Source: Phocoena phocoena (Eukaryota > Chordata > Mammalia > Artiodactyla > Phocoenidae). From it: 64,000 bases of DNA. Position numbers and translations under genes: made by a program. Location: positions 147,952,288-148,016,287 of the forward strand of contig NC_089219.1 of NCBI RefSeq assembly GCF_963924675.1. Direction: 5' to 3'. Positions 11,095 to 31,812 of the stretch are shown here, piece by piece (position 1 is the stretch's first letter; every line of letters begins with the position of its first letter). A model generated the notes under the pieces. That model saw only the letters and a program-made list of their open reading frames with translations. It was not told the DNA's origin and did no database searches.

Positions 11095-11922
<828 letters not shown>

Positions 11923-12290: not shown

Positions 12291-12383
12291 TCAGAGCTTC
12301 AGGCTGTCCTTATTGGCCAGGAACACTGCCACTGCTATAGCAGTCAGTGCCGTCAGCATCAGAAGCCATCGGCCACGTTGCCT
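12291..12383 (-). pseudogene. TRAF3IP3: TRAF3IP3 last coding exon (membrane anchor) with damaged acceptor
   Basis: The frame RQRGRWLLMLTALTAIAVAV, then FLANKDSLKL and a TGA stop at 12293-12291, matches the C-terminal membrane anchor of human TRAF3IP3. Exon 14 ends in phase 0, so the acceptor AG should sit at 12385-12384; the bases read AA. The nearest AG, at 12383-12382, starts the exon two bases late and destroys the anchor frame. The transmembrane frame itself remains open. Confidence 0.8.
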
Positions 12384-15300
12384 TTGTGAGGAGGGAGGGG
12401 GAGAGAAGAGAAAGAGGCCATGGGTTGGTCAGAGAAGATGCAGGCAAAAATAATCTTCCTTCTTCCCATTCTAGCCCAGTGGAAAATCTTGGGTTGTTGG
12501 AGGAGAAAAAGCTTTTTATATCTCTGTCTCTCTCACTTTGCCCCCTCCCTCGGGATAAAACCACTTTCCAGTGGTCACTGGCCCAGCGAACCACAGCCAG
12601 CGGGGGCCAGGTACTTAAATACTGATATGAATAATCAAAAGTGGAAAATAACTCAGCAAAATTATATTCTGTTTATATTCCTTTTCTCGTCACTCTGTCC
12701 TTGCCACTATGCTCATAATAGACTAAAAGAACACCGTTTCATACTTCAGCTAGTAGTAACTCTTTTCCTTCAGGCTCAGGCTTTCCATGAAAATTAGGCT
12801 TGGAGGCATGAGCCAGTGTTTCTTTACATGGTTGCTATACTCTCAGTACAGTATAAACCAAGCTGAACGGGGCCGGCTGGTCAGATGTTGGCAGGGGCTG
12901 AACAATTTTATGGGCAAGATTTGGCTAAAGGAGGAATCGTCCCACGATCACCTAGGGCTGTACGGGAGGATAGACCCTCTTACTCTGGGAGGCAGCTGCT
13001 GGCTCTGGTTCAGCTCTTCTCGACAATGCTGCAGCTTACGCAGGCAGGAGAGATACTCATCACTGAGGCTGTCTAATTCTGAATGCAGTTCTTTGCACTG
13101 TGTGGGGGCGGTGGGGGGGGCGTTGCGGGAGAACACCACCAAGGTCATCAAGACAGTTTTGTCAGGGACAGAGCTCAGGTGGGGGAGAGGGCCCTGTGTA
13201 AGTTGCCCTGTCATTCATTTGGAATTTTTACCTCCATCCTCCCTTCCCAGCTTTTCTCAGAGCTTTCAGTTTGCCTTCTGTCTCACCTAGTTTGTTTGTA
13301 ATGTGTTCATTTAAATGATTGATTATAATGCATATTATTATATATTACACATGTGTGACAGTTGTATGTGCCAGTGCTTTGTAAATGGAGACACACAAAA
13401 ATGAAGTTCCTATAGCACGCACAACCTGGAAGAGATCTTAGTGCAAGTCTCTTTGCTGGGAACTAGTTGTGTGTGAACACTTCAGGAGCTACGTATTTCT
13501 GTGAGTATGCAGATAGGAAGAGTTTTGTTATTTAAAAGACACTGTATAAAGTTTTAAGATACTCAACGTAGGACAGAGTTTGAGGAGTTAATGTGTTTGT
13601 TAAATGTGTTTGAGTTTAGGTTGACTTTCTGAAAAGTAACTCTTTAGTAAAACCTTGAATAAGGGTTGGTATAAACAAGAGAAAAGATTGACAAGTTAAC
13701 CCGAAAGCAAAGATGTTTTATTCAGGCCTAAATGAATACCTGCACGCACCCAATCACAACTTAAGCTCAGAAATGCCTGTTGTCTGGCTGCCTCCCAGCA
13801 GTTTCCCTGTCACTGTAGGATGAGCCCCTTACTATCGGAGGTCACCATCTCACCTCCATTTCCTTGGCCAGGAGCTGCAAAGTTTTCTTTTGGAGCTGGT
13901 CTCTGAAATCCCAGTCCTTCTCCTTCCCTGGACCACTGCGTTATGGGAGGGCTTTGGACTCCACCCAGGCAAAGCCTGATCTAAAAAATCAGCCAGATTC
14001 GCAGTGAAAGTGAGATCCATACCTCTGAGGAATGGTCCCTACACACTGAGAGAAGCCCTAAGCGGGAGGGAATAAGGAAGGGCCTGTCCCTGGCCAGACC
14101 GTGTGGATTGCAATTCTCTGACTTTTAAAGAACATCCATTGGGATCCTGCCCAGACTGGACAGAGAGTGGGAATTTGAGCCCCTTGAGGGCAAGGTTGGC
14201 ATTTTACTTTTCTCTGTATCTCTAGTCCTGTCTAAAGCCAGATACTTTTAGAAAATACTTATTAATTTAGTTTCTTTGGTTGCATGTCACATCTTTTAGA
14301 CTGGGAGGTTTGCTGGATGCTTCAGTATAACTCCATTTTCCTTCTGTCCTTGTTTCAAAATGATGAGATGAGAATGGCAGTCATATAACTCATCTTCATG
14401 TAGTTAAAGATGGTTTTTCAGCCACCTGGCAGTCTGCATCTTGGTGAAGAGAGCCCTGGCCTGGGAGTCAGAAATTCTGGATTGTGGTCATAGCTGTGTC
14501 CTTAATTTGTATGACCACAGACCCTCATTTACCTTCATTTTCTTATCCATCCTATGTGGGCATAATAATTCCTTCTTTATATTCTACCCAGTGATTGTGA
14601 TGACAAAACAGAGGGCCATGTGCAGTGGATAAATGAGGAGCTTTTGCCCCTCCAGATGTATGATGAATTCTTCTCAGGAAGCTAAGGCAGCAGACTTGAG
14701 GGCTGAGAGTGGGGTGACTGTTCCATGTGACGTGGTTTCTACTTGGGGAGCTGGATGTGGTTTGGAAAGTTAAGGGTAAAAATTAACATAAAATCCTGAG
14801 TTCAAAATCAATTTATTGAAATATTCAATGCAGGCATATGTTTTCAGAGGGAGTGGGAATCCTTTTCACAGTTTATATACCTCTCAGGATAGGAGGCTAA
14901 CTAAACTATTCTCAGAGCCAATGATGAGTCCTTAAAATGGCCCTCTAGCTCCCTGACCTAATAGACTCCCAGAACTGGGTGGGACTCCAAGAGGTCATGT
15001 AGTCCATCCCGCTGTCTCTAGGCAGACAGGGAAAGGGCAATATCTTAGAATTTGTGGAAATAAATTTGCTGACCTTTCTTTGTTAAGAGTTTCTCCTGTT
15101 CTTGAAGCTGTAAGGATTGATTCTGAAGCAGACCTGTTGGAAAACACAAGGAACTTCTCTGTGCTAGCATATTTACTGCGAAGAGTAACTTTTCAGAACT
15201 TCGCTTAGAACCTTAATGATTGTGTTCCCATCTGTAGTTGGTTGAATTGTGTCTCCCCCACCTGCCCCCCACAAATTCATATGTCAAAGCCCTAACCCCC

Positions 15301-18300
15301 AGTACTTCAGGAATGTGACCCTATTTGGAGATAGGTTCTTTGCAGAGGTAATCAAGTTAAAATAGGACATTAGAATGGGCCCTAACCTAATATGACTGAC
15401 GTCCTTATAAGAAGGGGAAATTTGGACACAGACGTGGATGGATGGAAGATGTGTGAAGAGATGGACAAGACAGCCATCTCCAAAACAAGGAAAGCGGTCT
15501 AGAACAGATCCTTCTCCCAGAGCCCTCAGAAGGAACCAACCCTGCCTGACACCTTGATTTTGGACTTCCAGCCTCTAGCACTATGAGAATGTAAATGTCT
15601 GTTCTTTAAGTCACCCAGTTTGTGGTGCTGTGTTTTGAACACACCATCCTTATGTCTTTTCCTACCATGTACATTTAAGTCTCTGCTTAAATGTTACCCT
15701 AGAAGAAAGACTTCCCCAGATGACCCTGTGTAAAATAGCAACTATTTTCTCTTTAACCTGCTTTATTTTTTCTCTGTAGCCGTTATTAATACCTGACACA
15801 TATTTGTTCACAGAAGCTCTGTAGTCCACTGTAGTGTTTCCTTAGAATGTAAGCTTTGTTAGGGAAGAGACCGTGCCAGCTCTGTTCATTACTGTATCCC
15901 CAGTGAGTATCTAGGGTGCCTGGCACTTGGTAGGGGCTCAATAAATATGTATTGAATAAATAAAGGCATGATTTTGAAGTGACTTGCCCATTCAGCTCCC
16001 GCTGTGTAGGAGCCCGGCTTCTGCTGGTGTTCTTTTCCCCTTAGCCCTGTGGCTGCCTTGCTGTTTTCATATTCATTGCTGTTTGCATGAAACTTCTCTG
16101 TCAGGGTGTCAGAGGTTAAGGTGTGAGCTATTAATTGAATCAGGTTCTGCAGCTTTTCAGAAATTGCCTGCTTTTCTTCTGAGACGTCCCTTGTCTTCTT
16201 TGGCCTCAACATGTAATTTTGAAGTGGACTGAGGCATATGTATGTAGTGTGAGCTTATTTTCTGAACCATTCCTAGTGACAGGTCTATGTGACATGTACA
16301 TAATAAATTAGACTATATAAAATAAGAACTACCTTAGAAAACTCAACACGTTTTGAAATCTGCAGTTCTGGGGGAAATGCAGGTGGTTGTCAGAGAACAT
16401 GGTGGAGAAAAGTAGAAACAAAAAAACCCAGAGGCTAATGTGGAACTTGTGAAGAGCTGTAAATGGCCTCACTGCAGAAGAAGAGGGTCTGAAAATGCAG
16501 AGATAGAGGATATGCCAAGGACCAGGCTCCCCATCCCTCCTTTGGGTGCCTTTCGTGGGGCAGGAGCCCCAAGAACACCAAAAAGCCACCTGTGCTACTT
16601 TCAGAATCTGGAAAAGGGACTTACTCTGCAACTGCTGTACTTTGGTCACCAGGGCAAGTTTCTCCTCCTCTGACCTCTTTAGTTGATCTGAAAATGAAAT
16701 AATGCAAACCAAAATAGACGAACCTAAGACTTAATGAGCTCGCCCCTGAGGCTGGAAATTGTAACAGATGCTGTCTTGCCCATGGCATCTGACAAGTGTC
16801 AAGTGGAAGTTGCTCTTTCTTCTGCTTGTCCCAGTTTGGAAGAGGTGAACCAGAACCCGACTACCTGGGATTTCATCTGCATCAACAGTGAGCTGAATTA
16901 AGGGTTATATGTGCACATAATTTGGTCTTCTCTCAGCTGACAGAGGCTGTGACTGGGAAACCTTCACTATGCCTTGTGTTTCAACTGACCTTTCCGTTTA
17001 AATTAGGAATGCGCCCTTGACACGTGACTGCTGTGTTCTGGCTTAGAGGGATGGGCTGGATCCTTTCAGTCTTGGATGATTAAAACAGCCTTGACTTTTT
17101 CTCAAAGTCAAATGAAATCGCCAAGTCAACCAAATGAACAAGCGAAAGACTGAAGCCTTTCCACCCAGCTTCCTTTCTCTGGGCTCCTTCAGCCAGAGGC
17201 CTCCAAGGAGAAGGGTACCTTGTAGGTGCTGGGTATCCAAGCTGCACAGGTCTCTGTCCCGCTGCAGGCGTTCAGTCTTGGTCTGCAGCTCCTGGCGCTC
17301 ATTCTCCAGAAGCCTTAGGGCCTGGTTCATCTGTAAGTCTCTACTGTCTGCTCCCTGGAAGGAGGAGGAGGGGTGGACACAAGCAGGTCAGTGCTAGGGT
17401 GGAGGTGGGGGGCGGATCCCAAGGAAGAGGAAAACTAGAAAACTGTGGAATTTTAGAGCTGCAAGGAGCCTTAGGGAAATGGAAAAATATGAAAAGTTTT
17501 TAAATTCTTTGCTCTATTCCTCACGCTTACAGCAAACAGTGCATTAGATTTTTGATGTTCACAAGGGATACATTTGGGTAAATGCCCAAATTAAGGAATA
17601 CTGAATCATCACTTTTCTAGATGTCTTCACTTTGTCTTTACTTCTCATTCTCACGCTATCTGGGGTGGCGGGGGGAGGCGGGGTGGGGGGGGGAGGAGGC
17701 GGGTAGGATCATTTTTCACAACGGATTAAGGTTAAAAAGAAACGGGCCTTCTGGAGAGTTGCCTTGTAGGTGATTCGAGGAAGAGAACAGTGGGTGAGAT
17801 GTGGCTGCGGTGCAGCGCCCAGCGAGGTTCCCTCCTGTGATAAGACGACTCACTTGCTGTTTCTTATCAAATGGGCTTTTTTTTAAGGAAAAAAAAAAAA
17901 AAAAGAATTTTAACGTCCTTTGAGAAATTCTTTGCCTTTTAAAATAAAAAATTAAAGAACAATATAAGAATAATTTGTACATAAGAATATAAAAAGTGAG
18001 AAGCAAAAATAGCGAGAAGCAAATTCTAAGGTTTCTGTTTTTTAATAGATTTGAAAGGAAATCTATAGATATGTCTTTTTTGCGGTACGTGGGCCTCTCC
18101 TGTTGCGGAGCACAGGCTCCGGATGCACAGGCTCAGCGGCCGTGGCTCACGGGCCCAGCCTCTCCGCGGCATGTGGGATCTTCCCAGACCGGGGCACGAA
18201 CCTGTGTCCCCTGCATCGGCAGGCGGACTCTCAACCACTGCGCCACCAGGGAAGCCCAACCTTAAATGTTTTTAACCCCCATTCCTCTGTCTGATCGGTT

Positions 18301-21300
18301 CTTCCTTTTTCTACATTTGGAACATTAATTCTTCATAAACAAATATGATGTCTATGAGTACAAACTGCTCGAGGTAATAAGGGAATTACAAATGTCTTTT
18401 TAATGACTTTGAACTAGAGTTGCACTCTTCTTCATTGCTAATAGGATATTGTATATAAAACTCAAACACATTGATATCTGGACCACCATCCCCCCAACAA
18501 ATTCTTTACAATCACTCAAAATGTTCCCCTTTCTCCCTGCTCACCTTAGAGCCACACATTAAGGTTTAGGTTGTTAAAAAACATAACAAATAAACAAAAA
18601 CAACTTTCACACTTCATTGATCTTATTTCTAGAACTGGCACACACTAGGATTCTCAGATCCCAGCTTCAGTAAAAGTATAAAGAGACACTTTTGAGGTGG
18701 GTCCTCAAAATTCCAAACCAAGTAAGTAAAATCTGCGAAAAACAATAGCTAGTATCTATGGAGAGCTTATATGTGCGAGGCATTGTGCTAAGTGCTTTGC
18801 ATGGATTTCCTCACCTAATCCTCACAACGATCCTATGATAGAGGTACCGTTATTATCCTCATTTTACCGATGTGGAAACTGAGGCTTAGGAGGTTAGTTG
18901 ACTTCTCCACGGTAAACACGGATTGGAAATGATGCAACCCTTGAGAATGCCAAGGGTCTACTGATTTGGCTTAAAAAACACATTGGCAAGATGTGTTAGT
19001 TGATACTCAAAACTGTAAGTAAACTGGTGACATTTATTCTGCCCCAGTAGTGGGCATTTCTGAACTGGATGCCCTGCTGGGATGGGGTGCAGAGAGTGGG
19101 TTGGGGCATGACAGTAGGCTGATGACTATTCCAGCCCAGCCCTTTGCATTCGGATGATGTCATTTCAATGAACACTTAGGTGTCATTTGCATGAGCAGTG
19201 CAGACATCCTTGCTAAACTCAAAATTAGCTTTGGGTCCCCCTGCCCAGCAGCAGCTTCTCTCATCACTGCTGTCAACACCTCCCTCCCCTAAACCCTGCC
19301 TTCCCTCCCCACCTCCCTACTCCCAGGGCCTGGTACCTGCAGTTTGGACTGAAGCACGTGGAGCTGGCTCTCCAGCTCCCTGTGCTGGGTCCCCAGGGTC
19401 CTCCAGTCCTCCTTCAGAGCCTCGTACTGGCTCTTCCACTCTTCACACTTCTGCTCCGCCAGAGCTAGGGACCGCTGAGGGAGATCAGAGGAGAGGGTGG
19501 TGCCTTGGGGGTTCCAGGAGGTCATGCAGCTGGCTCCCTTGCCACCCAGACTGCCCCAGGGTCCCCAGCCCCAAGGATTATGGAGCATCCCCACACCTGT
19601 GTGCTCTGCAGTTGCTGTTCTGCACTCATTTTCTCCTCCAGCACTTTCTGCAGTGACTCCTTGGCCTTCTGCTCATAGCTGTTTTTCTGGTCTTCCATCT
19701 CTAATAGCACCTTATTCATTCCCCAAGGAGTGTATTTCTGTAAATTTGAGGCAATTCAACAAATACACATTGAGCTACTGTGTGCTAAAGCCTGAGCAGG
19801 GATACAGAAATGAAAAGAAATTGGTCCTTGCCCACAGGGCAGAGATGTCAGTAATCTGGTGGACCTTCTTCCAGGCTGGAGGCAGGCAGGGAGAGTCCCT
19901 CAGGTGATGTGAGAGGTGAGTGGGGATAAAAAACTGCCCTGGGCATGCTGGGCATTCTCCCCTAGGCCTTCCACAGGCACTTGAAATCCAACATTTCCAA
20001 AGGGAAATCATCCTTCTAAACCTGCTCCTATCTCAGTGACCAGCATCACCACCCACCAAGTCTCCCAAACCCTAAACCAGGGAATCACCCTTGATTTCTC
20101 TCTCACCTTCTTCAAGGAATCAGTTCATCATCAAGCTTTGTCAAGTCAATGTCTTTAACAGCTCGTACCTGTATCCTCTATCCCTACTGCCACCTCCTTA
20201 GTTCAGACCCCAGTAATACTATTATATGGATTATATCGAGACTATATATTATCTTCATGCCTTGCCTCCCTTCAAACCCTTTTCAGTCCTGCAGCTAGAG
20301 GGTTCTTTCCAAAACGTAAATCTGATCACGTCGCAACCTGCTTAAATCTCTCAGTGGTTCTCAGTATTCTAAGAATCAGGTCCAAACTCCTTGGCATGGT
20401 TCCTACTTACAAGCCCAGACTTTCATCTCATGCTGCCTCCACGCAAGCTGAACTGCTTGTAGGTCCTCTAAGCACTGTGCTTTTCAGCCTCTGCCTTTGC
20501 CCATAAAGCTGCTTCTACTTAGAGTATCGTGACCCACACTTTTCACTTGGTTAACTTCTACCCATGTTCAAGATTCAGCTCTAGAATCATAAATTCTGAT
20601 AAACTTGGCCAACCATACCTACCCCTCGTCTCTTTATGGATTAGGTAGTTTTACTGGTGTTCACATAGTATCTGTATTTCTAATCTGTTGACTCATCTGT
20701 CTCCTTTAAGGGACTGTAAACTCCTTTGAGGCAGGGAGCATTTTTAAAAAAATAAAATTATTTTTGTAGGCTTGGGGATCTGAACAATATTCAGTAGTCA
20801 AGTTTTAAAAATTAATACATTTGTATTTTTAGAATCTCTCATGGCTTCAAGATCAAAAATAAAAAGACACAAGAGCAGCTTTGCAAATTCACTGGGGGTC
20901 TTGCCCTTCCAGTGCTTTTCATTTTTATGTCCTGTGATTTTTGGGAAAGCGGGAGCCTTTTACTATCGATTCTGGGTTACCCAACTGGGTAAGAGATAGT
21001 CTAGATAATGCAAATTTAGAGTTCAATATCAAATCATTTCCATTTAGCTTTGGAGTCATCTGAAAGTTTGGATTTAAATGTTGAGTGGGTCTTATGTTCT
21101 TGGAATTGTCACTAGAAACCAGATACAGGAGTTACTGGTTGAGATCATACATGGTTATGTCCAGGTTATTGGATTTAACCATGCTGGTCACTGACCAGCT
21201 TTATCCCCCATTGAAAACGAGTAGACTGGCATTCTGGATTATCTGTCAGTCTCTTATGAGCTTGGTTGGCATTACTGAAAAAATAAAAGTTGTGGATCCG

Positions 21301-24300
21301 CAAACCCATAGACTATATAGACTATAGACTATATGTTCCCCTGCAAAATTCTAACTACGTGGCCACCTTATCTTCCTAACATCAAGTGGGAGCAGTCTGG
21401 CCGGTTCATCTCGTTCTCTTGACTTATCTCCCCGCCTGTCAGAAATCTATCACTTCTCGAGTGTGAAAACTGACTTTTTTCTATCTCATGTAATCCAAGA
21501 TCAGGCCAATCAAGAGATTACCGGAGCTGGATAGCAATGCCACAGAAAGCCAGGAGTCACAGTCTTTTACTTTCTCCCAGGGATTGCTGGTAGATAAAAG
21601 TTGCCCATGGCATGAAAATCATTTTGCGAGACTTCATTGTAATATCCAACCCATCTGTTCAAATATTAGGGCCTGTGAAGTTCTATCCAGGTGAGCTGAA
21701 TCTTTACCAAGGGCCTCTCCCTACGTTTCCAGGTATTCTCAAAGTTCCCCTGGAGCTGGCAAAGCGCTTAGTGCTGGGCTTCATTTCCTAGGGTACAAAG
21801 TGAAGGACACCAGGAGAAAGGGAGAGGGGGATGGAGATAGTGTTTTGGTGAATTGGAGACCAAAGTGAAAATGGTAAAGGCCAGAACTGGGTGAGTAGGG
21901 ATGGGTGCATTAATCTCTAGCAGGTCATGTTTCTAGAGAGTAAGCTTGACGTTCAAGCATTCTCTCCCTTAATTCTAGATTCCTGGGCTAGAAGTGTCCT
22001 CCGGAATGCTTACCTGGGTACAGGTGTACAGCTGGTTTTCCAAAGATCTCAGTTTGCCCTTCAATTTGTCTTCATTAAGCTGGCCCTGGAGCAAATGGGA
22101 TGAGTTAGCCAGAATACAGCTTGGGCCAGAATACAGCATGCAAAGAGTTTTGTTCCGTATTCCCAGCCTACTGCCTAGAATAAACAGTGTTTGTGGAATT
22201 GAGCTCTTTCAGGAGGTAGAGAGAGGGAGAGATGACAGATGTTTGGAAAGAAAAGGATCTTTTCCTCTTTCTCTGTAATAGGAGAAGGAAGAATCAGACT
22301 GGACCCCAAAGTCTTCTGTGTACCTTGAGGTTTTGTATCAAGTGGCTCAGGATATCATAGCAGGGGCCCATTTGAAGGAAAGCTTCTAAGCTCTCCTTTT
22401 CTTCTTTCATTACCTCTCTCCCCTGTCTGGCCAGGCACTTCTATACTCCGCACCTCCTCTCAGTCTAGTACCTGGCCCTTTACCTCTAAAGGCCAGTAGG
22501 ACTAAAGGGGTCTCCCCTCCCAGGGGGAACATACATCCCTCCCTTACCCCCTGTTATGGGCTGAATTATGTCCCCCTAACCTCCCCACAACGTGCATACG
22601 TTGACCTCCTAATCCCCAGTACCTCAGAAGGTGACTGTATTTGGAGATAAGTTCTTTAAAGAGATAATTGAGGTCCTTAGGGTGGGCCCTAATCCAATAT
22701 GACTGGTGTGCTCATAAGAAGAGGAGATTTGAACATCAGGATATGCAGAGGGAAGGCCACATGAGGACACAGGGAGGAGAAAGCCATCTGCAAGCCAAGG
22801 AGAGAGGCCTCAGAAGAAACCAACCGTGTCAACACCTTGTCCTCACACTTCTAGCCTTCAGAACTGTGAGAAAATACATTTATGTTGGTGAAGCCACCCA
22901 GTCTGTGGTACTTTGTTATAGCAGCCCTAGCAAACGAATACAGTCCCCTCTCTGCCCTACACACACACACACACACACACACACAGACTCAAGATGAGAA
23001 ATTCTCTAAGAAAGCAGGAAAGGGAGGAGGGATATTAAGGCAGGGTGTGTATGTGTGCGTGGTAGTGACGGTGGTGGTGAGAGGACCTCCCAGAAAGCCA
23101 CATGCTATTTATTCACGATCTGGGTCTGTCTAGTGGCATTTTGGACATTCCAAGAGGGACGTAAATCTCAAGGGCGGGGGTGGCGAAAGGCAGGCAGGCA
23201 GGCCCGTTATTTGTTTCTCAGTATTTCTGCTGAGCAGCCGACAGCTTCCTTGCTGCCTTATTCTTTCCTCCACCTGTAGACATGTTCCTTTTTCCCAGGT
23301 AGGGGTTTTGTTCCTCCAGTCCTGAGTCTGATTTAAGGTTGTGTGTGTGAGGGGGTGAGGGCGGGGAGGTGCCGTGGATGAGAGCCAGTTTCGCAGAGAA
23401 AAGGCCATGGGTCTCTTTAGCAGTAACCGGTTCTCATATCCTTTCGCTGGCTTTTCCAAGCAGGCCCCGTGGGACGCTTGTGAGGTCTAGAAATTACATT
23501 TCTCCTCAGGCCTGAGACGCCACCGTCCCTCTCCGTTGGGAGACGGCTTGGACACGGCTTGGACGTTTCCAACCCTTACAATGTTTCTGGTCTGTAACGG
23601 CCAGAGGGCAGAGGAGCCTCTGTTTTCTTTGTTTGTTTGTTTGTTTTGTTTTTATTTTTTTCGGTATGCGGGCCTCTCACTGTTGTGGCCTCTCCCGTTG
23701 CGGAGCACAGGCTCCGGACGCGCAGGCTCAGCGGCCATGGCTCACGGGCCTAGCGGCTCCGCGGCATGTGGGATCCTCCTGGACCGGGGCACGAACCTGT
23801 GTCCCCTGCATCGGCAGGCGGACTCTCAACCACTGCGCCACCAGGGAAGCCCGAGCCTCTGTTCTGAGGTCTGTCCCCCTCACTGAGTTTCAGGGCACCT
23901 GGGAGAGGCAGGAAGTGGTATCTCACAGCTCCTGTTTTGATCTTGTTTGGCCGATTCTTCTAACCCTGGGAGCCAGGGGGCACCTCCACCCTTTTTCCTT
24001 CCTGTATTCCTCAGCGGGGCCTTGCAAAAGCAAAAGGCTTTGCCAAAAATAATTTTTCAAAGTGCCTTCTGCTATGAATGTTTTTCATAATGTCTGGTGT
24101 GAGAGCCGAGGGTCAGGATTTGGCATCTACAATAACCACAGGGCTTTGGGACAGATAGAACAGATGGAAAAGACTTCCACTGTTCTGGGCTCCAGAGTAA
24201 CTGGGAAAAGTTACTCCCCTGCATGGCCTGTTCATTATTAATCCACAGGTCCTGAAATCAACTCCTTCCACCTGTATCGCAGCTCCGGGTTCAGAGAGTG

Positions 24301-27300
24301 TGACTGTGTATTTTCCTTTGCCTAAACTCTTACTTTGCAGGATGCAATCAAACCCACTGAGTTTGACAGTTTATCTTGTGGTAGTTTCAGAAGAAAACAA
24401 GCCCAAGGCAATATTCTTACAATTCCCTCAGTCTCCTACCCTTTCTGGGTAGCTCCCTTCTCCTTCCTTAGTATGGTTTCTATCCAGTATTTTTGCCTCT
24501 TCCAACTGTTTTTGTGTTTTAGCCACTCCCCAGATTACTTTTCCATTCACGTTGTAATAGAAGACAATTCAGTTAGCCCCTTCAGTGGAGACGAAGGGCC
24601 ACCCAAGTCTGGGGCTTGAAAACATCTCTGATCCACAGCCCCGCCTGCCCAGACTCCCCAAGGCAGGCAGGGAAGTTGCAGCCGAGTTGTTGCGAATGGG
24701 GCATGTGGTTTCCTGGTCTGAGCCCCGGCTCTCCCCACATGAAGCCCAGTGGTACAGTATGGGGAAAGAAGCACTTTTTACAGGCCAATTGTGGAACTTT
24801 TTTGGCAGTAGCATCCCAGGAACCCAGGGTTCAGAGAGCATAGTATCCCCGCTTGTAAAAGGGAGCAAGGTGGAGGCCATACACACCCGATGCTGGTCTG
24901 AGGGCTTCAGCTCCTGCTTCTGCTTGGCTTTCCCCTTGCCTCTGATCTGCTCTCCAGAAACACCACCGCCTCACCGCAGAAGCACCAGCCCACTTATCTC
25001 TCTGCTCTACTAGAGGTTGCTTAGGGCCTGCAGCCAATCCCCCACTGCGCTGTCATCTTAAGATCTCATTTCCACTTTGCAGAACTCAAAACCCACGTGT
25101 GCCCTGCTCTGGGTTTGTATTGCCCCATACTGAGGGCTTGCTTTCTCTACTGCCCAAACTGTTTCTGCTCTGAAGCTTGGAGCCAGCTCAGGAGTCTTTG
25201 CTGTGCCCCAGGGCCTGTCACATCCAAAAGGCCCAAAGTCATCTTGAAGGTGGAGGCAACAGAGGGAGCTGATCTCTGGTGTTCTAATAGAGTTTGTGGT
25301 GAGCTTCTCTGCATGTGCATTTGGAGATTCAAATTATGGAGGCCAAATGGAAAAAAAAATAAAGGCCTGAACTTGGCTGAATATCGGAGTCCCTGTTCTG
25401 GCCACATTCTTCCACTTAACTTTTCCCAAGTATGGAAGTCTGGGACTGTCTTTTCATTGAAGTTGAGCTTTCCAAGGAAGGGGTAGGGGGTTGAATTGTC
25501 TTGTTTTGGGGGAAGCAAGAGCTGTTAACTGAAAAAACCTGAGACTATTTTTCTTAAAAACGGGAAGCTGAGGGGTTGGTGGGGAGGAAGAAGACAAAAA
25601 GGGTGAATATTAGGGGGTGGGGGGAGAAGGGAGGGAGAAAACCACAGCTGGAGGAACTCCTGCACCCCGCAGGAGCATGGAGCGAAACCGCCCTCAGAGT
25701 CTACCTTGGAAATGTCTCTTAATAAATCCTCCCCATTCCCACCACGCTGGCTGTAATTCAGCTTCTGATTGTGTCTTACCTGCGGTATTGCAAGAACTTT
25801 CACCACCCCTACACCCACTGGGAGCCAGGGTCCTCATTGTTGTCAGAGAACCTTTTATAAGGTTTATAAAACACAGATCTGATCAATTGCTTTCAACTCA
25901 GTTCTACAGCTATCTTTTTCATTTCATTTAATTAATTAATTTATTTCTTGGCCACGCCACACGGCACGTGGGATCTTTCTTCCCTGACTAGGGATCGAAC
26001 CCGCACCCCCCGGCATTGGAAGCGTGGAGTCTTAACCGCTGGACCGCCAAGGAAGTCCCACCACAGCTATCTTAGTACACGTGCTGCCAAGCGAGTGCAA
26101 CTCCACGGCTACTGGACAAGCTCCTTCTCAGGGTGGGCCGGACACTGCTAAGCGTAGGGCTTTAAACCTGAGGAGAACGTGGTCCCACTGCTCCCCTGCT
26201 TATTGCCTGCGGCAGTGTTTCTCAAACTGGGGTGGCATGCATTCTCATGATATATATATATATCTTTTAAGAGGGAATCTATAACTATTTAAGTTTGAGA
26301 TACCCTATTCAACAGAAAAAGTTTAAGCGCCATAATTCTAAAGACCTATCTGAGGCCCCTTCGGTCTTATCTTTGGAGCTACTCTGACACAGTCCCTTCA
26401 TTTCCATCACACTCTGCTATACCCTACGCTTTGTTACACCTAGGCCTGTAATCATTCTGATTCCTTTACTGTGAGCACCCTTTTCCTTTTTCCTTCTTCT
26501 TACTCTTCATCATTCCTGCTTCTGTACTGGTAAACTCCTATTCAATCCTTCCAGACCCCACTAAAATGGTCCGTTTCCTTTGGAGTCTACCCTATACCAC
26601 CTCAGGCAGAAGAACTGCTCCCTTCTCTTTTCTCTGTGTCACTTTGTAGAAAGTGCTGTTACAGCTTTAGCACACTGCAGTAGAGTTATTTATGACCTGT
26701 CTCTCTCTTCCTGGCTGATGTTGGAACTCCTAAAGACAAAGCACCCTACCTCTGTCCCTGTAGCACCCAAGCCAGCACATAGTTGGAACTTATCAGATGT
26801 CTGTTGAATAAATGAATGAGACAGTCTCAGTTTAGTTCAGCACCGGAAACCACCTGGCATGCACAGCTGTCTGTCTCAGGCTCCTACTCAGCTATGAAAA
26901 CAACTTCCTTAACCAGCAGGAGCCCTGAACATAAACACCTAAATCCGGATACAGTGACTGACATGAAGAGGGAGGGCTGAGCCTAGGAGTCTCTTTGACA
27001 TCACTGCAAACTTCTTAGTTTTGTCCCACGTCCTCCCATCCCATCTCTCTGTCTAAGCACAGCCATCTACGTGGTAAGGTCAGATGTGCACGGAGGCTGG
27101 GAGGTTGTGTGTTCTCTCTGTGCACCCGGGGCTTTCTGCTCCAGTCGCATCAAACTGCTTATGCTCCCTGAACATTAAAGTCTAGGGGTTTCGATGTGGG
27201 GTCCAAGGACCCCTGGGAATCCAGGATCTGCAAGGTCTTCCCTTTTCCAACTACATATCTGTGTGAGGCTGGATTTTCCTCATATGCTTCAACCAAAACA

Positions 27301-30300
27301 ATGTATTAACAACAGACTGAATGCAGACGCAAATATGAGAATCTAGCTGTCTTCCGTTCAGACATTAAAAAGATTTGCCAGCTCGGTGCTTTGTGACCAC
27401 CTAGAGGGGTGGGATAAGGAGGGAGGGAGGAAGACGCAAGAGGGAAGGGATATGGGGATATATGTATGCATATAGCTGGTTCACTTTGTTATACAGCAGA
27501 AAATAACACAACACTATAATTATACTCCAATAAAGATGTTAAAAAAAAACAAAAAACAAAACCAAACAAAAATTTGAAAAAGCATAAAACAATGCCACTC
27601 CTCTCACTATTTTTTTAAGAAATATACTATTTTTTGCAAAGATATATAATTTAGGTTCACATGTAATCTATTTAATATTGTTATTTTAAAATTAATGCAT
27701 ATTTTAAGATTCCTGTTTTCATTTCAAGTGGTAAATATAAAAAGTTCTTTGGATTTTAATATATATTTTTAAAGAGTATAAAGGGGTCCTGAGATTAAAA
27801 AGCTGGAGACCCATTGCATTAACCTATATCATGCCTCTGGTTCTTTGCCTATGCTGTATCCCCTGCCCAGAATATAGTTCCTGTTTCCACATTTGCCTGG
27901 AAAATACTAATATAACTATAAATATTTCCCTGGTTCTCCCCTTCTGTGGATTCATTCATTCCTCCTTGTATTCTACTATATCCTGAAAGCCTTTATTTCT
28001 CACATCGCTGCTTTGTTTAGGCATCTGTCTCCCTGACAAAACCGCAAGCTCTCTAAAATCAGGAACCCTGTCTAATTAATCTCGTTTCCAGTGCTCAGTG
28101 TAGAGAACATGACTTATGAATATTTGTTGAATGAATGGACTAAAATCAGGAAGTCTGAATTTTAGATCCAGTTCTGCCTCTAACTAGCAGGGTGACTGTG
28201 GACTAGTCACCTGACCTCCCTGACACTCAGTTTCCTCATTGGCAAAATGAGAAAATTAACTAATCTCCAAGGTCCCTTCCCGCTTTGGCATTCACGTCTG
28301 GGCTGACCAGTAGGTGTAGGATGACTTGGAATTAATATTGGTGTGAATCCCATATGAAAATAGTTGCATTTATCACAGTCAGTAATATTAACTGAATTGG
28401 GACCGTCCTTTCTTCCAACAAACTAAAAAATGGAAACTCTTGCCTCTTTTGGTTCTGGGTCTTCCCTGGGTGTGTCCTCAGCTGACCACCCTGGATTGAG
28501 CCAAGCTCTCCCATATATTTACTGTGACATGTTTGACCTCTAGGTCTTAGCACCATCCCCCACTTTCAGCCTCTTCAGTAGCGAAAAAGCCCCTTCTCTT
28601 GCTGGGATGGTATGGAAAGAAGAATGAGATAGGCACACATAGAAGTCCATGAGCTTTGTTCAAGCAAAGATTTCCCTTACCTTCCAAGAGCTGTCAGAGG
28701 CCCGAATCAGGGCAGACAGTAGGTCTTGGAGAATCACCATTTTCTGTTTTAGAATCAGCTCCCTCTGTAGGGCCTCCTGGGGGGCAAAATGCAAGAGGGT
28801 AAGATTAAGTTGGAGGAGAAGGGAGCAGATGGATGGAGGAGCTGCGGGGAGAATTCACATGTTACTTACTTTGAGGTACTCAGAAAGCTGGATGATTTCC
28901 TAGAGAGAAAGAAAAAGATATTTAAGAAGATTGTAAGTTCCCTGAAATCCTAGAACATGGAACCCGAGCCAGGATTGGCTTGTGCTGAGTAAACTTTCTT
29001 CCTTGACTCAGGGTCCCTCCAGGCCCCCATGTCTATGCTCATCCAGGAAGAGGGTACCCCTCCATCCCAGCTGAGTTTACCGTGGAATTCCAGAATGTCA
29101 GAGCTTGGAGTAGAGTAGATGCCACCTGATTCAACACCTTCACCATGAGGATTTTCTTACCTTATCTAGAACTGCAACTCCATAACTGGAAGAGAAGAAA
29201 AAAACACAAAAATAAAGAACAAAAATGACAATGGATCAAAGAAATAAGAGTGTCAGGAGGCGGTGTATTGATTCCTTCTCTGATCTCTTCTGAAGAGCCA
29301 ATGGGGAAGCGGAGGGGGGGAAGGCCTTCCTTTTTCTTAATTAAGGTGGACGTGGAAGTTCCTTGTGCTCCTCTCCGCGTTCTGGGGGAGGGTTCAGGTA
29401 AAAGCTTAGGAGAGAGGAATGGATGGGCTGTGAAGGAGTTGAGGTCAGGAACATGAAAGGTACTCACTTGGTTTGCTGACTGGCATCGTGCTTAATTGTT
29501 GGCTGTGTTTCTTCTGCCTTTGTCTGAGTGCCTGAGGGATAGGGATAAGGCAATTCAGAACCCATGGGAGAGGCAGTGAGGGAAGTGGGGAGGGATAGGG
29601 ACTCTCCACTGCCAGCGAGTGGAAATGCCTCGGCCCAGTGAGTGAAGGAAGGCCCTGCTCTTACCACGGTGGTGTTTGGGTGGCTTCCTGATGGGAGGGT
29701 CCTGTGGTGGAAGGCCCCCAGCCTGGGAGGGGAGGTGGTCAGCTGGATCCCTCCAGGTGCCTAAGGGAGGATGGTGTTGGGTTGCAAAGACTTCGGAGCT
29801 GGTCCCTGACACCTGGAAAGCAAGTGGGGGATGCTGAGAGCCTAGACAGAACCTCTTAGAACAGAATTCTCCAGCTGACTGCAGAAAGATGAGCCAGTGA
29901 TCAAGTTTCAGGTCCAGAAAACCAAAGGAACCCATTCAAGCCTTCAAAGCTACAAGGTTATCCCTGCTCCTGCCCTTTCTTGTCCTGGCTGGTGGGATCG
30001 GTCCTCCTCAGTTCAGGCAAATGGGGAGCTGGGTTTGTCTCCAATTACTCTCTCTAGAGTCCCTGATCCCGGAAAGAGAACCGGTCTGAGGTGGGAGTGA
30101 GGGGATCTGGGATCAGGTCCTGCCTCTTGTTGGTCTCAGTCTCCTGGCTGTATAATGAGGAGCTTGGAGTAGATGGTGTCCAAGGTGCCTTCCTATTCTA
30201 GAGGTGGTTTCCTTCCTCTTAGTAACAGCTGGACTATTGTTGAGGTTTTGTGTGAAGAGAAGGTAAATTAGGCAGCTGTAGGGAGGAATGCAGCAGTAGT

Positions 30301-31812
30301 TGTCACAATTTTGCTTGCTATTTTTACATTTTCTTCTTACAAACTAAAAAAATTTATGTTTGTAACATAACACTAAAAGGCTAAGAAATGCATGTGACAG
30401 CTAATCATGCAGACTAACTGAATCTCAAGAAACCTTAAATAACTGATAGGCTCAGGAAGAGTTCTTTAGGTAACTGTGTTTTCTGTTCTTTTTCTCCTTA
30501 AAATTATTTTTTCAACCGAAGGCACGTAGAAACCTTCTTGCCTTAGAAAGTACACAGTTGGTTTTATTTTACAGCTGGGCTCGAGGATCATTCTTCTGGA
30601 CAGCACCTCCTGTTGTGGATAACACATGCACTGGTTAAGAAGGCCCAACAGAGCACCTACTCTGGGGACAGTACAATACCAGTTACTTCCAGGGAATCCG
30701 GAGGACCCATCCCTGCTGTCCACATGCTCACAATGTGGATAGGAAGACACAGATGGTTTGCTGGCTGAGTTCATTTCAACGTACCCTGGCTTTTGCCAGC
30801 ACTGCTCCTTCCCAGGGTGGACTAATGGGCCCTCTAAAAGTTACACAATCTTAGAGGATTTATAACCTCATAAAAACCACAGAGAGCAGAGGTGGCCTGG
30901 AGAAGCTAGGGAAGCTAGGGCTTCCTGGGCCAGATGGCAGCCTTAGGTGAACGATATTGGAATTGGGATGGCCCAAGAGAAAGAGAGAAGGTGGGTGATG
31001 CAGCAGCCTTACAGAAGAATAGAGACGAGAAATGTGTGTGTGTGTGTGTGCGTGTGTGTGTGTGTGTGATTTGAGGGAGACATTAAGAGATTGGTCTGTG
31101 TCCCTGGCCTACAGTAAGCATTCATCGAATGTTTGTTGAATGACGGAGGAATGAATGCCGTAGAAGGTATGTCTAGATAGACTGAACTTGAACTAATACT
31201 AGGAATTAGCTATGGAATTGTTTTTAAATTATTCTTTTCTCTCCTAAAAGGCAAGTGCAAAACAAAAAGATAGCTAAACAAACAAAAAAAAACCCCAAAA
31301 CACAACAACAAAAATATCTGTTGAATAAGTGGCTAAGGGAGACTTTATGATAACTGAGGAAGGATGGACTTCATTTAAATCACTTCTTAGTGACCTTGAG
31401 CCCACCCACCTGCCTTGGTGCTGCACCCCATCCCCTCCAGAGCACTGTGTCCCTCTACATGGCCCACCTGCTGTCTGGGGGAAGAAATCCTGTTGGCCCA
31501 AGACAAGGGCTCCTTGAGGTCGGTCGCCTGGCCTGGCCTCCTGGAGGGACCTGGCTCCCTGGCCTGCGGGCTCTGTGCCTCGCCTTTCTCTTCCACCTTC
31601 AGGTTCCTCCGTCTGAAAAACTGCTGTTGTCGTGCCCTCTGGAGCTGTTCCCTCTGCTGGGTCCTCAGCACCTTCCCCACCTGGCGGCAAGTGGTCACAT
31701 TGGGGCGGCAGCGGCGGCTCTCACGGGTCTCCTGCCGGCGCTCGCACTTGGCCTCGTAGCTCTCAGCCCACCGGGCCAAGCCAGAGGCAGGCCTAGGGTC
31801 TGGGCTGATCAT
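12291..31812 (-). CDS. TRAF3IP3: TRAF3-interacting JNK-activating modulator (TRAF3IP3/T3JAM), C-terminal frame disrupted
   Basis: TRAF3IP3 is a coiled-coil adaptor of lymphoid cells with a C-terminal membrane anchor. It is known to bind TRAF3 and to act in JNK/ERK signalling, thymocyte and B-cell development and MAVS antiviral signalling. Fifteen coding segments on the minus strand reproduce the human protein order (about 551 residues there). The start ATG at 31812 gives MISPDPRP with LARWAESYEAKCERRQ. Exons 1-12 encode 439 full codons in one open frame, including a basic N-terminal region and long heptad-rich segments (EMEDQKNSYEQKAKESLQ, HRELESQLHVLQSKL). Exon 13 has a length that breaks the frame, giving a stop in exon 14 at 13075-13073 and a predicted protein of about 489 residues. 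Exon 15 has also lost its in-frame acceptor. All other splice sites are canonical. It could be a recently inactivated gene or one making a truncated, unanchored isoform. Confidence 0.93.
12984..13097 (-). CDS. TRAF3IP3: TRAF3IP3 coding exon 14 (reached out of frame)
   Basis: The acceptor is CACACAG and the donor is GTAAGA. In the ancestral frame it gives 38 codons, from CKELHSELDSLSDEYLSCLR to SQQLPPR, well conserved. Arriving from the shifted exon 13, translation meets TAG at 13075-13073, 89 nt before the last exon junction. That is far enough for nonsense-mediated decay by the usual 50-55 nt rule. Confidence 0.9.
13854..13980 (-). pseudogene. TRAF3IP3: TRAF3IP3 coding exon 13 with a frame-breaking deletion
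   Basis: The acceptor TTTTTTAG and donor GTGAGA are intact. The exon is 127 nt (1 modulo 3), while the incoming phase (two bases complete Asp) and the phase-0 start of exon 14 need 2 modulo 3. It starts in frame as QALPGWSPK, but the family-like continuation KEKDWDFRDQLQKKTLQL is in another frame. The break falls near the CAGTGGTCCAGGG stretch around 13934. Human, as I recall its protein, needs 137 nt, so a net 10-nt deletion is implied. Confidence 0.85.
13981..15073 (-). other. TRAF3IP3 intron 12
   Basis: This non-coding stretch contains a MIR remnant at about 14438-14600. I see no exon in it. Confidence 0.75.
14438..14600 (+). repeat. MIR SINE remnant
   Basis: Order of blocks: GGCCTGGGAGTCAGAAATTC, a diverged GTCCTTAATTTGTATGACCA core and TTTTCTTATCCATCC, as in MIR on the plus strand. 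Confidence 0.6.
15074..15133 (-). CDS. TRAF3IP3: TRAF3IP3 coding exon 12 (last exon in the original frame)
   Basis: The acceptor is CCAACAG and the donor is GTCAGC. It completes the Ser, encodes LLQNQSLQLQEQEKLLTKK and ends with the G of a split Asp, which exon 13 completes with AT. Confidence 0.94.
15232..15655 (+). mobile_element. MaLR-type LTR (MLT1/MST-like)
   Basis: Typical order: GGTTGAATTGTGTCTCCCCC, CCTAACCCCCAGTAC, a TTTGGAGATAGG block, CCTTATAAGAAG, CTTGATTTTGGACTTCCAGC and a GTCACCCAGTTTGTGGT end. It is a solitary LTR of an ancient non-coding endogenous retrovirus-like element in a TRAF3IP3 intron. Confidence 0.75.
16625..16687 (-). CDS. TRAF3IP3: TRAF3IP3 coding exon 11
   Basis: The acceptor is ATTTTCAG and the donor is GTAAGT. 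It completes a split Asp, encodes QLKRSEEEKLALVTKVQQLQ and ends in the A of a split Ser. Confidence 0.94.
17219..17354 (-). CDS. TRAF3IP3: TRAF3IP3 coding exon 10
   Basis: The acceptor is CTTCCAG and the donor is GTACCC. Forty-five codons plus one base: GADSRDLQMNQALRLLENE, then DRDLCSLDTQHLQ. Coiled coil continues. Confidence 0.95.
17661..17704 (+). other. G-run tract with quadruplex-forming potential
   Basis: Several runs of three to nine G occur within 44 nt, interrupted by single T, C or A bases. It lies on the template strand of TRAF3IP3, in an intron. Confidence 0.7.
18076..18257 (-). mobile_element. CHR-2 type tRNA-derived SINE
   Basis: A T run is followed by GCGGTACGTGGGCCTCTCC, with the usual CHR-2 blocks and the tRNA-like head at the right end (GCGCCACCAGGGAAGCCC). 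It is in a TRAF3IP3 intron, sense to that gene. Confidence 0.9.
18745..18930 (+). repeat. MIR SINE remnant
   Basis: Well-preserved MIR 3' half: GCTAAGTGCTTTGCATGGAT, TAATCCTCACAACGATCCTA, and CATTTTACCGATGTGGAAAC followed by TGAGGC. Confidence 0.8.
19337..19474 (-). CDS. TRAF3IP3: TRAF3IP3 coding exon 9
   Basis: The acceptor is TCCCTCAG and the donor is GTACCA. Forty-six codons: RSLALAEQKCEEWKSQYEAL, KEDWRTLGTQHRELESQ and LHVLQSKLQ. This is central coiled coil. Confidence 0.96.
19597..19737 (-). CDS. TRAF3IP3: TRAF3IP3 coding exon 8
   Basis: The acceptor is TTTACAG and the donor is GTGTGG, a weaker donor than its neighbours. Forty-seven codons from KYTPWGMNK to QQLQSTQ form a strongly charged coiled-coil segment. 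Confidence 0.95.
22014..22085 (-). CDS. TRAF3IP3: TRAF3IP3 coding exon 7
   Basis: The acceptor is TGCTCCAG and the donor is GTAAGC. Twenty-four codons (GQLNEDKLKGKLRSLENQL, then YTCTQ) are nearly identical to human. A 6.6-kb intron separates it from exon 6. Confidence 0.95.
22553..22944 (+). mobile_element. MaLR-type LTR (MLT1/MST-like)
   Basis: It runs from TGTTATGGGCTGAATTATGT to GCAGCCCTAGCAAACGAATA, with internal TGACTGTATTTGGAGATAAG, a GGGTGGGCCCTAATCC block and CCTTCAGAACTGTGAGAAAA. It is a near-complete solo LTR in the plus orientation. Confidence 0.8.
22959..22985 (+). repeat. (CA)n microsatellite
   Basis: About 13 uninterrupted AC units just downstream of the MaLR LTR. Confidence 0.95.
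23655..23852 (-). mobile_element. CHR-2 type tRNA-derived SINE with clear target-site duplication
   Basis: Reverse-oriented CHR-2 with a T-rich tail from about 23625. The direct repeat GAGCCTCTGTT flanks the insertion at 23614-23624 and 23853-23863. In TRAF3IP3 intron 6, sense to the gene. Confidence 0.92.
25935..26059 (-). mobile_element. Older CHR-type tRNA-derived SINE, short form
   Basis: AT-rich tail (ATTAATTAATTTATT) then GGCCACGCCACACGGCACGT, CTGACTAGGGATCGAACCCG and CGCCAAGGAAGTCCC at the head end. Shorter and more diverged than CHR-2. Confidence 0.8.
27180..27825 (+). repeat. Ancient interspersed repeat, possibly hAT DNA transposon, split by an L1
   Basis: The left arm begins TCTAGGGGTTTCGATGTGGG and contains CAAGGTCTTCCCTTTTCC. 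The right arm ends GGGGTCCTGAGATTAAAAAG. The arms look like one element interrupted at 27378-27570 by L1 sequence. The class is tentative. Confidence 0.4.
27378..27570 (+). mobile_element. L1 LINE 3' end fragment (artiodactyl type)
   Basis: Contains CACCTAGAGGGGTGGGATAA, a GACGCAAGAGGGAAGGG block and TTCACTTTGTTATACAGCAG, ending CAATAAAGATGTTAAAAAAA. This is a 5'-truncated L1 terminus with an A tail. Confidence 0.85.
28140..28290 (+). repeat. MIR SINE remnant
   Basis: GATCCAGTTCTGCCTCTAAC, then a diverged GACCTCCCTGACACTCAGTT core and TTCCTCATTGGCAAAATGAG, in MIR order. Confidence 0.65.
28681..28776 (-). CDS. TRAF3IP3: TRAF3IP3 coding exon 6
   Basis: The acceptor is CCCCCCAG and the donor is GTAAGG. 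Thirty-two codons, from EALQRELILKQKMVILQ to ASDSSWK, form predicted coiled coil. Confidence 0.95.
28870..28899 (-). CDS. TRAF3IP3: TRAF3IP3 coding exon 5 (30-nt exon)
   Basis: The acceptor is TCTCTCTAG and the donor is GTAAGT. It encodes EIIQLSEYLK in phase 0. Confidence 0.93.
29161..29185 (-). CDS. TRAF3IP3: TRAF3IP3 coding exon 4 (25-nt micro-exon)
   Basis: The acceptor is CTCTTCCAG and the donor is GTAAGA. It completes the split Asn and encodes YGVAVLDK. The length and frame fit both neighbours exactly. Confidence 0.93.
29468..29531 (-). CDS. TRAF3IP3: TRAF3IP3 coding exon 3
   Basis: The acceptor is CCCTCAG and the donor is GTGAGT. The exon completes a split Gly and encodes TQTKAEETQPTIKHDASQQT, ending in two bases of an Asn codon. 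Confidence 0.94.
29665..29812 (-). CDS. TRAF3IP3: TRAF3IP3 coding exon 2
   Basis: The acceptor is CTTTCCAG and the donor is GTAAGA. Forty-nine codons plus one base encode VSGTSSEVF, SQAGGLPPQDPP and KPPKHHR, matching the proline-rich region of the human protein. Confidence 0.94.
31033..31069 (+). repeat. (TG)n microsatellite
   Basis: About 18 TG units with one CG interruption, in TRAF3IP3 intron 1. Confidence 0.95.
31468..31812 (-). CDS. TRAF3IP3: TRAF3IP3 coding exon 1 (start codon)
   Basis: The ATG at 31812-31810 (A at -3) opens 115 codons ending QQ before the donor GTGGGC. The sequence is rich in Arg/Gln (QREQLQRARQQQFFRRRN). Upstream an acceptor-like CTATTCCAG precedes 31852, so about 40 nt of 5' UTR are probably in this exon and a non-coding exon lies farther upstream, not identified. 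Confidence 0.95.

Follow-up and report, generated by a model that had tools for sequence, protein, structure and literature searches.

Two faults in the C-terminal exons of porpoise TRAF3IP3 point to loss of the canonical membrane-anchored C-terminus, probably shared with the beluga

TRAF3IP3 (T3JAM) is described as a STRIPAK component and a paralogue of SLMAP (PMC6323126); T and B cells are described as depending on it for their development, and regulatory T cells for their stability (PMC9260427, PMC6323126). Residues 188-513 bind SIKE1 (PMC6323126), and the nuclear localisation and export signals of the human protein have been placed at residues 30-37 and 407-416 (PMC9260427). In work on lung cancer, a fragment of the transmembrane region, residues 521-551, showed the strongest binding to STRN3 and a greater overlap of STRN3 with an ER marker, and, citing other work, the same paper calls the transmembrane region essential if the protein is to reach lysosomes in regulatory T cells (PMC12061266). 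The gene that we examine here shares its exon order, its frames and the coding sequence of exons e2-e13 with TRAF3IP3 of other mammals. Theirs, however, has the canonical anchored C-terminus, which here would be unavailable to the standard transcript.

The closest described cases are the lineage-specific gene inactivations of cetaceans collected in the Gene Loss DB (PMC12462620), in which frameshifts and splice faults are likewise found in a subgroup of cetaceans, with the hippo and other whales intact. TRAF3IP3 differs from them in being hit only in its last three coding exons, while the upstream coding exons are open. The gene is absent from the main text of the Gene Loss DB paper. A full-text literature search for TRAF3IP3 or T3JAM together with cetaceans or gene loss returned no relevant report among main texts, and the co-mentions that it did return were unrelated by title.

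The window, the whole stretch of DNA that we analysed, comprises 64,000 nt of the Phocoena phocoena genome. TRAF3IP3 lies on its minus strand, where we placed 15 coding exons, e2-e16, by reading frame and splice dinucleotides (e3-e7 and e16 by reading translated frames; Table 1). The gene had been named as TRAF3IP3 in an initial annotation made from the letters alone, and we agree: the exons are in order, and the read-through text is 92% identical to the minke whale protein (P0001) over the whole query, as expected of a full-length orthologue. Exons 12, 13 and 14 of the initial annotation are e13, e14 and e15 here. The twelve exons e2-e13 give 1318 nt of open frame, with no stop or frameshift, with GT donors throughout and with AG acceptors from e3 to e13. 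A PDB search with e11 gave no match, and a Pfam scan gave one match for the minke protein, below the Pfam cut-off, and none for the beluga protein.

Table 1. Positions in the window of the TRAF3IP3 features discussed in the text.
Feature	Position	Strand	Remarks
e2, first coding exon, with ATG, 345 nt	31468..31812	-	begins ATGATCAGC; donor GTGGGC; frame open
e3-e13, eleven intact coding exons	15074..29812	-	AG acceptors and GT donors in all eleven; frame open
e13 (exon 12 of the initial annotation)	15133-15074	-	ends in phase 1
e13 read-through tail of the anchor-free isoform	15047..15073	-	GQQIYFHKF, then stop; matching tail in sperm whale P0067 and Pteropus P0108
AATAAA, the sole AATAAA/ATTAAA of intron 13	14812..14817	-	256 nt past e13
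e14 (exon 13 of the initial annotation), 127 nt, with frameshifting deletion	13854..13980	-	phase, length, alignment
Junction of the 10-nt deletion in e14	13932..13933	-	10 nt by comparison with the 46 codons in minke P0001
Start position of the beluga model's e15, longer by 61 nt	13159..13160	-	AA in the window; beluga side is a gene model
e15 (exon 14 of the initial annotation), 114 nt; family frame intact, entered in the wrong phase	12984..13097	-	
Premature TAG stop of the shifted frame	13073..13075	-	89 nt before the end of e15
AA where the acceptor AG of the last coding exon is expected (second fault)	12384..12385	-	first AG 2 nt downstream
e16, last coding exon, with transmembrane anchor and stop	12291..12383	-	family frame from 12383; usable acceptor gives a start at 12381

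The first fault lies in e14, the third-last coding exon. Because e13 ends one base into a codon, so that e14 is entered in phase 1 (flanks TTTTTTAG and GTGAGATG), and because the family frame of e15 starts with the exon's first base, e14 must be 2 modulo 3 long, as the initial annotation had argued. It is 1 modulo 3. The frame in which it is entered gives DQALPGWSPKPSHN for its left part, whereas KEKDWDFRDQLQKKTLQL on the right is read in another frame, which again bears out the earlier reading. The corresponding exon of minke P0001 spans residues 440-485, that is, 46 codons or 1 + 137 nt, and therefore 10 nt are missing from the window. This was also the length proposed initially; the proposed site, near 13934, has to be moved slightly, to the junction given in Table 1. 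The window's TRAF3IP3 carries an inactivating DNA change of the kind by which lineage-specific gene inactivation is recognised. The shifted frame ends in e15 at the very TAG that had been named. Its distance of 89 nt from the end of e15 exceeds the 50-55 nt usually given for nonsense-mediated decay (NMD), and NMD is therefore predicted for the canonical transcript. Leaving e14 out is no remedy, as had been claimed, for it yields VQRTAFRIRQPQ followed by a stop.

The second fault was absent from the initial annotation. The family frame of e16 opens with an arginine codon (12383-12381) ahead of QRGRW, and the two bases directly before it are AA instead of the acceptor AG. Splicing at the first AG further on would enter the exon with the anchor out of frame. 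Models that join e13 straight to the last exon (Papio P0119, Myotis P0104 and Hipposideros P0105) imply that in those species the exon starts 2 nt before this late entry. In 113 of the 137 relatives that we fetched (45% identity cut-off) the C-terminal end has the anchor in frame, and in the standard transcript of the window it is not. Judged by reading frame, either fault alone would be enough to keep the anchor out of the standard product. Both lie in the C-terminal exons, no more than 1.6 kb apart.

A beaked whale protein gives an unusual reading at the same exon. In P0009 (Mesoplodon densirostris, annotated as "-like isoform X1"), a divergent copy, the reading of the last exon (residues about 520-554) at first suggests entry 2 nt late (SRAMWPKF) but soon returns to the anchor frame, and it continues beyond the usual stop. 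The stretch deleted in the window is kept, and 35 of 433 residues differ from the sperm whale. P0009 may have arisen by retrocopying of a late-spliced mRNA; alternatively, another indel may have repaired the gene. If its late-entry reading holds, the acceptor change would predate the deletion; because it is possibly a retrocopy, we left it out of the dating of the second fault.

We next turn to the distribution of the faults. A search with the read-through protein matched 585 proteins, and the 120 matches listed include minke, humpback, fin, sperm, pygmy sperm and beaked whales, Sousa, vaquita and hippo. With the out-of-frame stretch alone the search returned one protein, beluga P0121. This protein carries the window's out-of-frame run QGRRRTGISETSSK, and it reads SHNEVVQGRRRTGISETSSKGKLCSSWPRKR where the window reads SHNAVVQGRRRTGISETSSKRKLCSSWPRKW, so that the break point is the same. 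Its C-terminal end, PPR-AMWPMASDADGTDCYSSGSVPGQ, is the reading from the late acceptor, which in the window gives ATWPMASDADGTDCYSSGSVPGQ. The beluga protein model thus agrees with the window both in the shift and in the late entry into the last exon, and the faults are common to two species, with the beluga represented for both faults by one annotated gene model at the protein level. Because this separate record has the same break point, the deletion is likely shared with the beluga by common descent.

The initial annotation had suggested aligning the exon with cetacean and other relatives. In minke, humpback and fin whale, Kogia and hippo the e14 stretch is undamaged and both fault sites read in frame (intact outgroup models P0001, P0002, P0014, P0076 and P0005); in the beluga the shift recurs. 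A loss common to all cetaceans is ruled out by the three baleen whales and Kogia. Over the 3' part of e14, the alignments show the ordinary frame in 125 of the 137 fetched relatives; besides the beluga, the exceptions are 11 models in which this part is missing or replaced. Four of those 11 are cetacean and uninformative on the deletion: the models of Sousa (P0072, ending in intron 12), vaquita (P0118, ending before e14) and sperm whale (P0067, ending in intron 13) are without e14, and that of the bowhead (P0122) joins other exons. Three blocks of the vaquita model, 369 residues in all, show one difference from the window; at e3 and at its end it departs from the window in stretches that look like model faults.

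With a probability of roughly three in four, we read these data as an inherited loss of the canonical membrane-anchored C-terminus of TRAF3IP3, by two faults, on the branch of porpoise and beluga. The deletion would shift the frame into the stop of e15, the changed acceptor would delay entry into the last coding exon by 2 nt and so put the transmembrane anchor out of frame, and the canonical transcript would be exposed to NMD; any protein made from it would be without the last part of the coiled coil and the anchor, and hence without membrane placement. By its sequence, the canonical anchored product appears lost from the standard transcript in the porpoise and, according to the gene model, in the beluga. 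NMD, the loss of membrane placement, the fixation of the faults and their common descent are what we infer from this. Three things count against the loss: skipping of e15 would return the anchor, e2-e13 are open and not accelerated where a long-disused gene would be expected to be otherwise, and the sharing of the faults depends on the annotation of one beluga gene. The support reaches a frameshift of TRAF3IP3, not the death of the whole gene. The initial interpretation therefore stands as to gene, deletion, stop and failure of e14 skipping, and needs to be extended by the acceptor fault, the distribution and the ways round the faults (e15 skipping and an anchor-free isoform). A whale branch without canonical anchored TRAF3IP3 would be a natural test of which roles depend on the membrane and which can be supplied by a soluble coiled-coil form.

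One such form brings us to a first alternative, in which only the anchored product is gone and an anchor-free one, made by read-through of e13 and intronic polyadenylation in intron 13, is kept under selection as a soluble coiled-coil partner in STRIPAK. We consider this possible, but short of probable. In sperm whale P0067 and Pteropus P0108, an isoform continues past the e13 donor and has GQQIYFHK[YF] as its C-terminus, and the window encodes the same end and has a single AATAAA further into the intron. Ending in intron 13, this isoform is unaffected by both faults; in sperm whale and Pteropus it is one isoform beside others, and in the window it may be the sole undamaged one. The positions of the localisation and export signals are upstream of the lesion, and from the human and mouse work we would expect a product ending in e13 or early e15 to keep these signals and most of the coiled coil, and to lose the anchor. 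The binding of SIKE1 by residues 188-513 (PMC6323126) also speaks for this reading. The state of the upstream exons also fits: over 426 residues of e2-e13 the window differs from the hippo at 35, as does the sperm whale, and the minke at 39, and the window's branch in a tree of e2-e13 is short. On the other side, the read-through tail was found in only two of the 137 relatives.

Window and beluga differ at 8 of 285 compared residues, and these are unevenly spread, with 2 of 182 before the lesion and 6 of 103 after it (Fisher p 0.028, ratio 5.3, at the protein level). The low count before the lesion would be expected if the anchor-free form were selected, but a control weakens the contrast. Among the 1225 pairs formed by 50 relatives in which both stretches are present, which are non-independent and involve small counts, the median after/before ratio was 1.88, and 3 of 1220 pairs reached 5.3; of 15 close pairs, one reached this ratio and three exceeded 5. 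The control took 50 of the 137 relatives, 87 having been dropped for missing anchors, a missing e12 or odd length. We regard the contrast between window and beluga as suggestive at best.

A second alternative is that the function of TRAF3IP3 as a whole has gone in this lineage, and that the gene is a pseudogene in which more lesions have yet to accumulate. The two lesions within 1.6 kb, both in the C-terminal exons, and the predicted NMD speak for it. Against it, the 1318 nt of e2-e13 have acquired neither stop nor frameshift, nor is there a rise in rate over these exons. We rate this reading, like the first, as possible but short of probable.

The third alternative is a rescue by splicing. 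Skipping of e14, of e13, of e13 and e14, or of e14 and e15 does not rescue the frame. When e15 is skipped alone, the result is a frame of 511 aa that runs into RQRGRWLLMLTALTAIAVAVFLANKDSLKL, the anchor, because the 10 nt lost by deletion and the 2 nt lost at the late acceptor add up to 12 nt, and the two shifts cancel. The two faults might then be a matched pair by which a minor splice form was rebuilt into the only anchored form, with its linker replaced; we think this unlikely. The e14-e16 join is annotated in 3 of the 137 relatives (P0086, P0088 and P0097), and the e15 acceptor, at 3.8, scores lowest among the real acceptors of the gene (here and below, by a consensus matrix). A match of phase would, however, be expected by chance in one case out of three, and e15 is included in the beluga model. 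It seems improbable that an anchored protein of 511 aa, its linker replaced, is made. That the faults cancel under e15 skipping gives a clear prediction for RNA-seq.

The initial annotation had allowed that an alternative splice site might restore the frame. All alternative e14 donors and acceptors scoring above 3 either run into a stop or leave the frame shifted as before. Within 400 nt upstream of e15, seven AGs would restore its frame; six of these reach stops, and the one that is open (13173, preceded by GAG) is not above the score cut-off of 2. Four AGs inside e15 restore the frame as well, three of them not above this cut-off and the fourth (12984) outside the scored stretch. None of these AGs returns the anchor, because e16 is entered late. 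In the beluga model the suggestion is borne out in part: e15 begins 61 nt earlier and its frame is regained, but the anchor is not, and the window has AA at the matching start. The bowhead model P0122 likewise extends e15 upstream, with an intact last exon. From 13160 to 13098 on the minus strand, the window shares with beluga P0121 and bowhead P0122 an open e15 frame (TVLMTLVV...), which both models use to extend the exon. The C-rich piece before the e15 acceptor is longer in window and beluga and shorter in the bowhead.

That base calling or assembly went wrong in the window's genome, or that a rare allele was sequenced, is very improbable and was set aside as the cause of the shift, since the separate beluga record P0121 has the same break point, the same shift and the same last-exon tail.

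Several other features were seen in the window. On the plus strand at 11095-11922, a frame of 275 codons is open and looks intact (a TTG start is listed; an internal ATG begins MSAPSPQLL); we take it to be the single-exon neighbour gene C1orf74. Between it and the next gene, at about 10020-9971, a GC-rich stretch holds an inverted repeat whose arms are about 15 nt long (CATTCCTACGCAGA ... TCTGCGTAGGAATG), and an imperfect tandem duplication of about 65 nt (CACCCAGATTTCTCTTGGTCATGCTTTAGTAACA...) lies at about 8090-7960. A stop-free frame of 178 codons at 60601-60068 on the minus strand resembles the end of a Tigger/pogo-type transposase.
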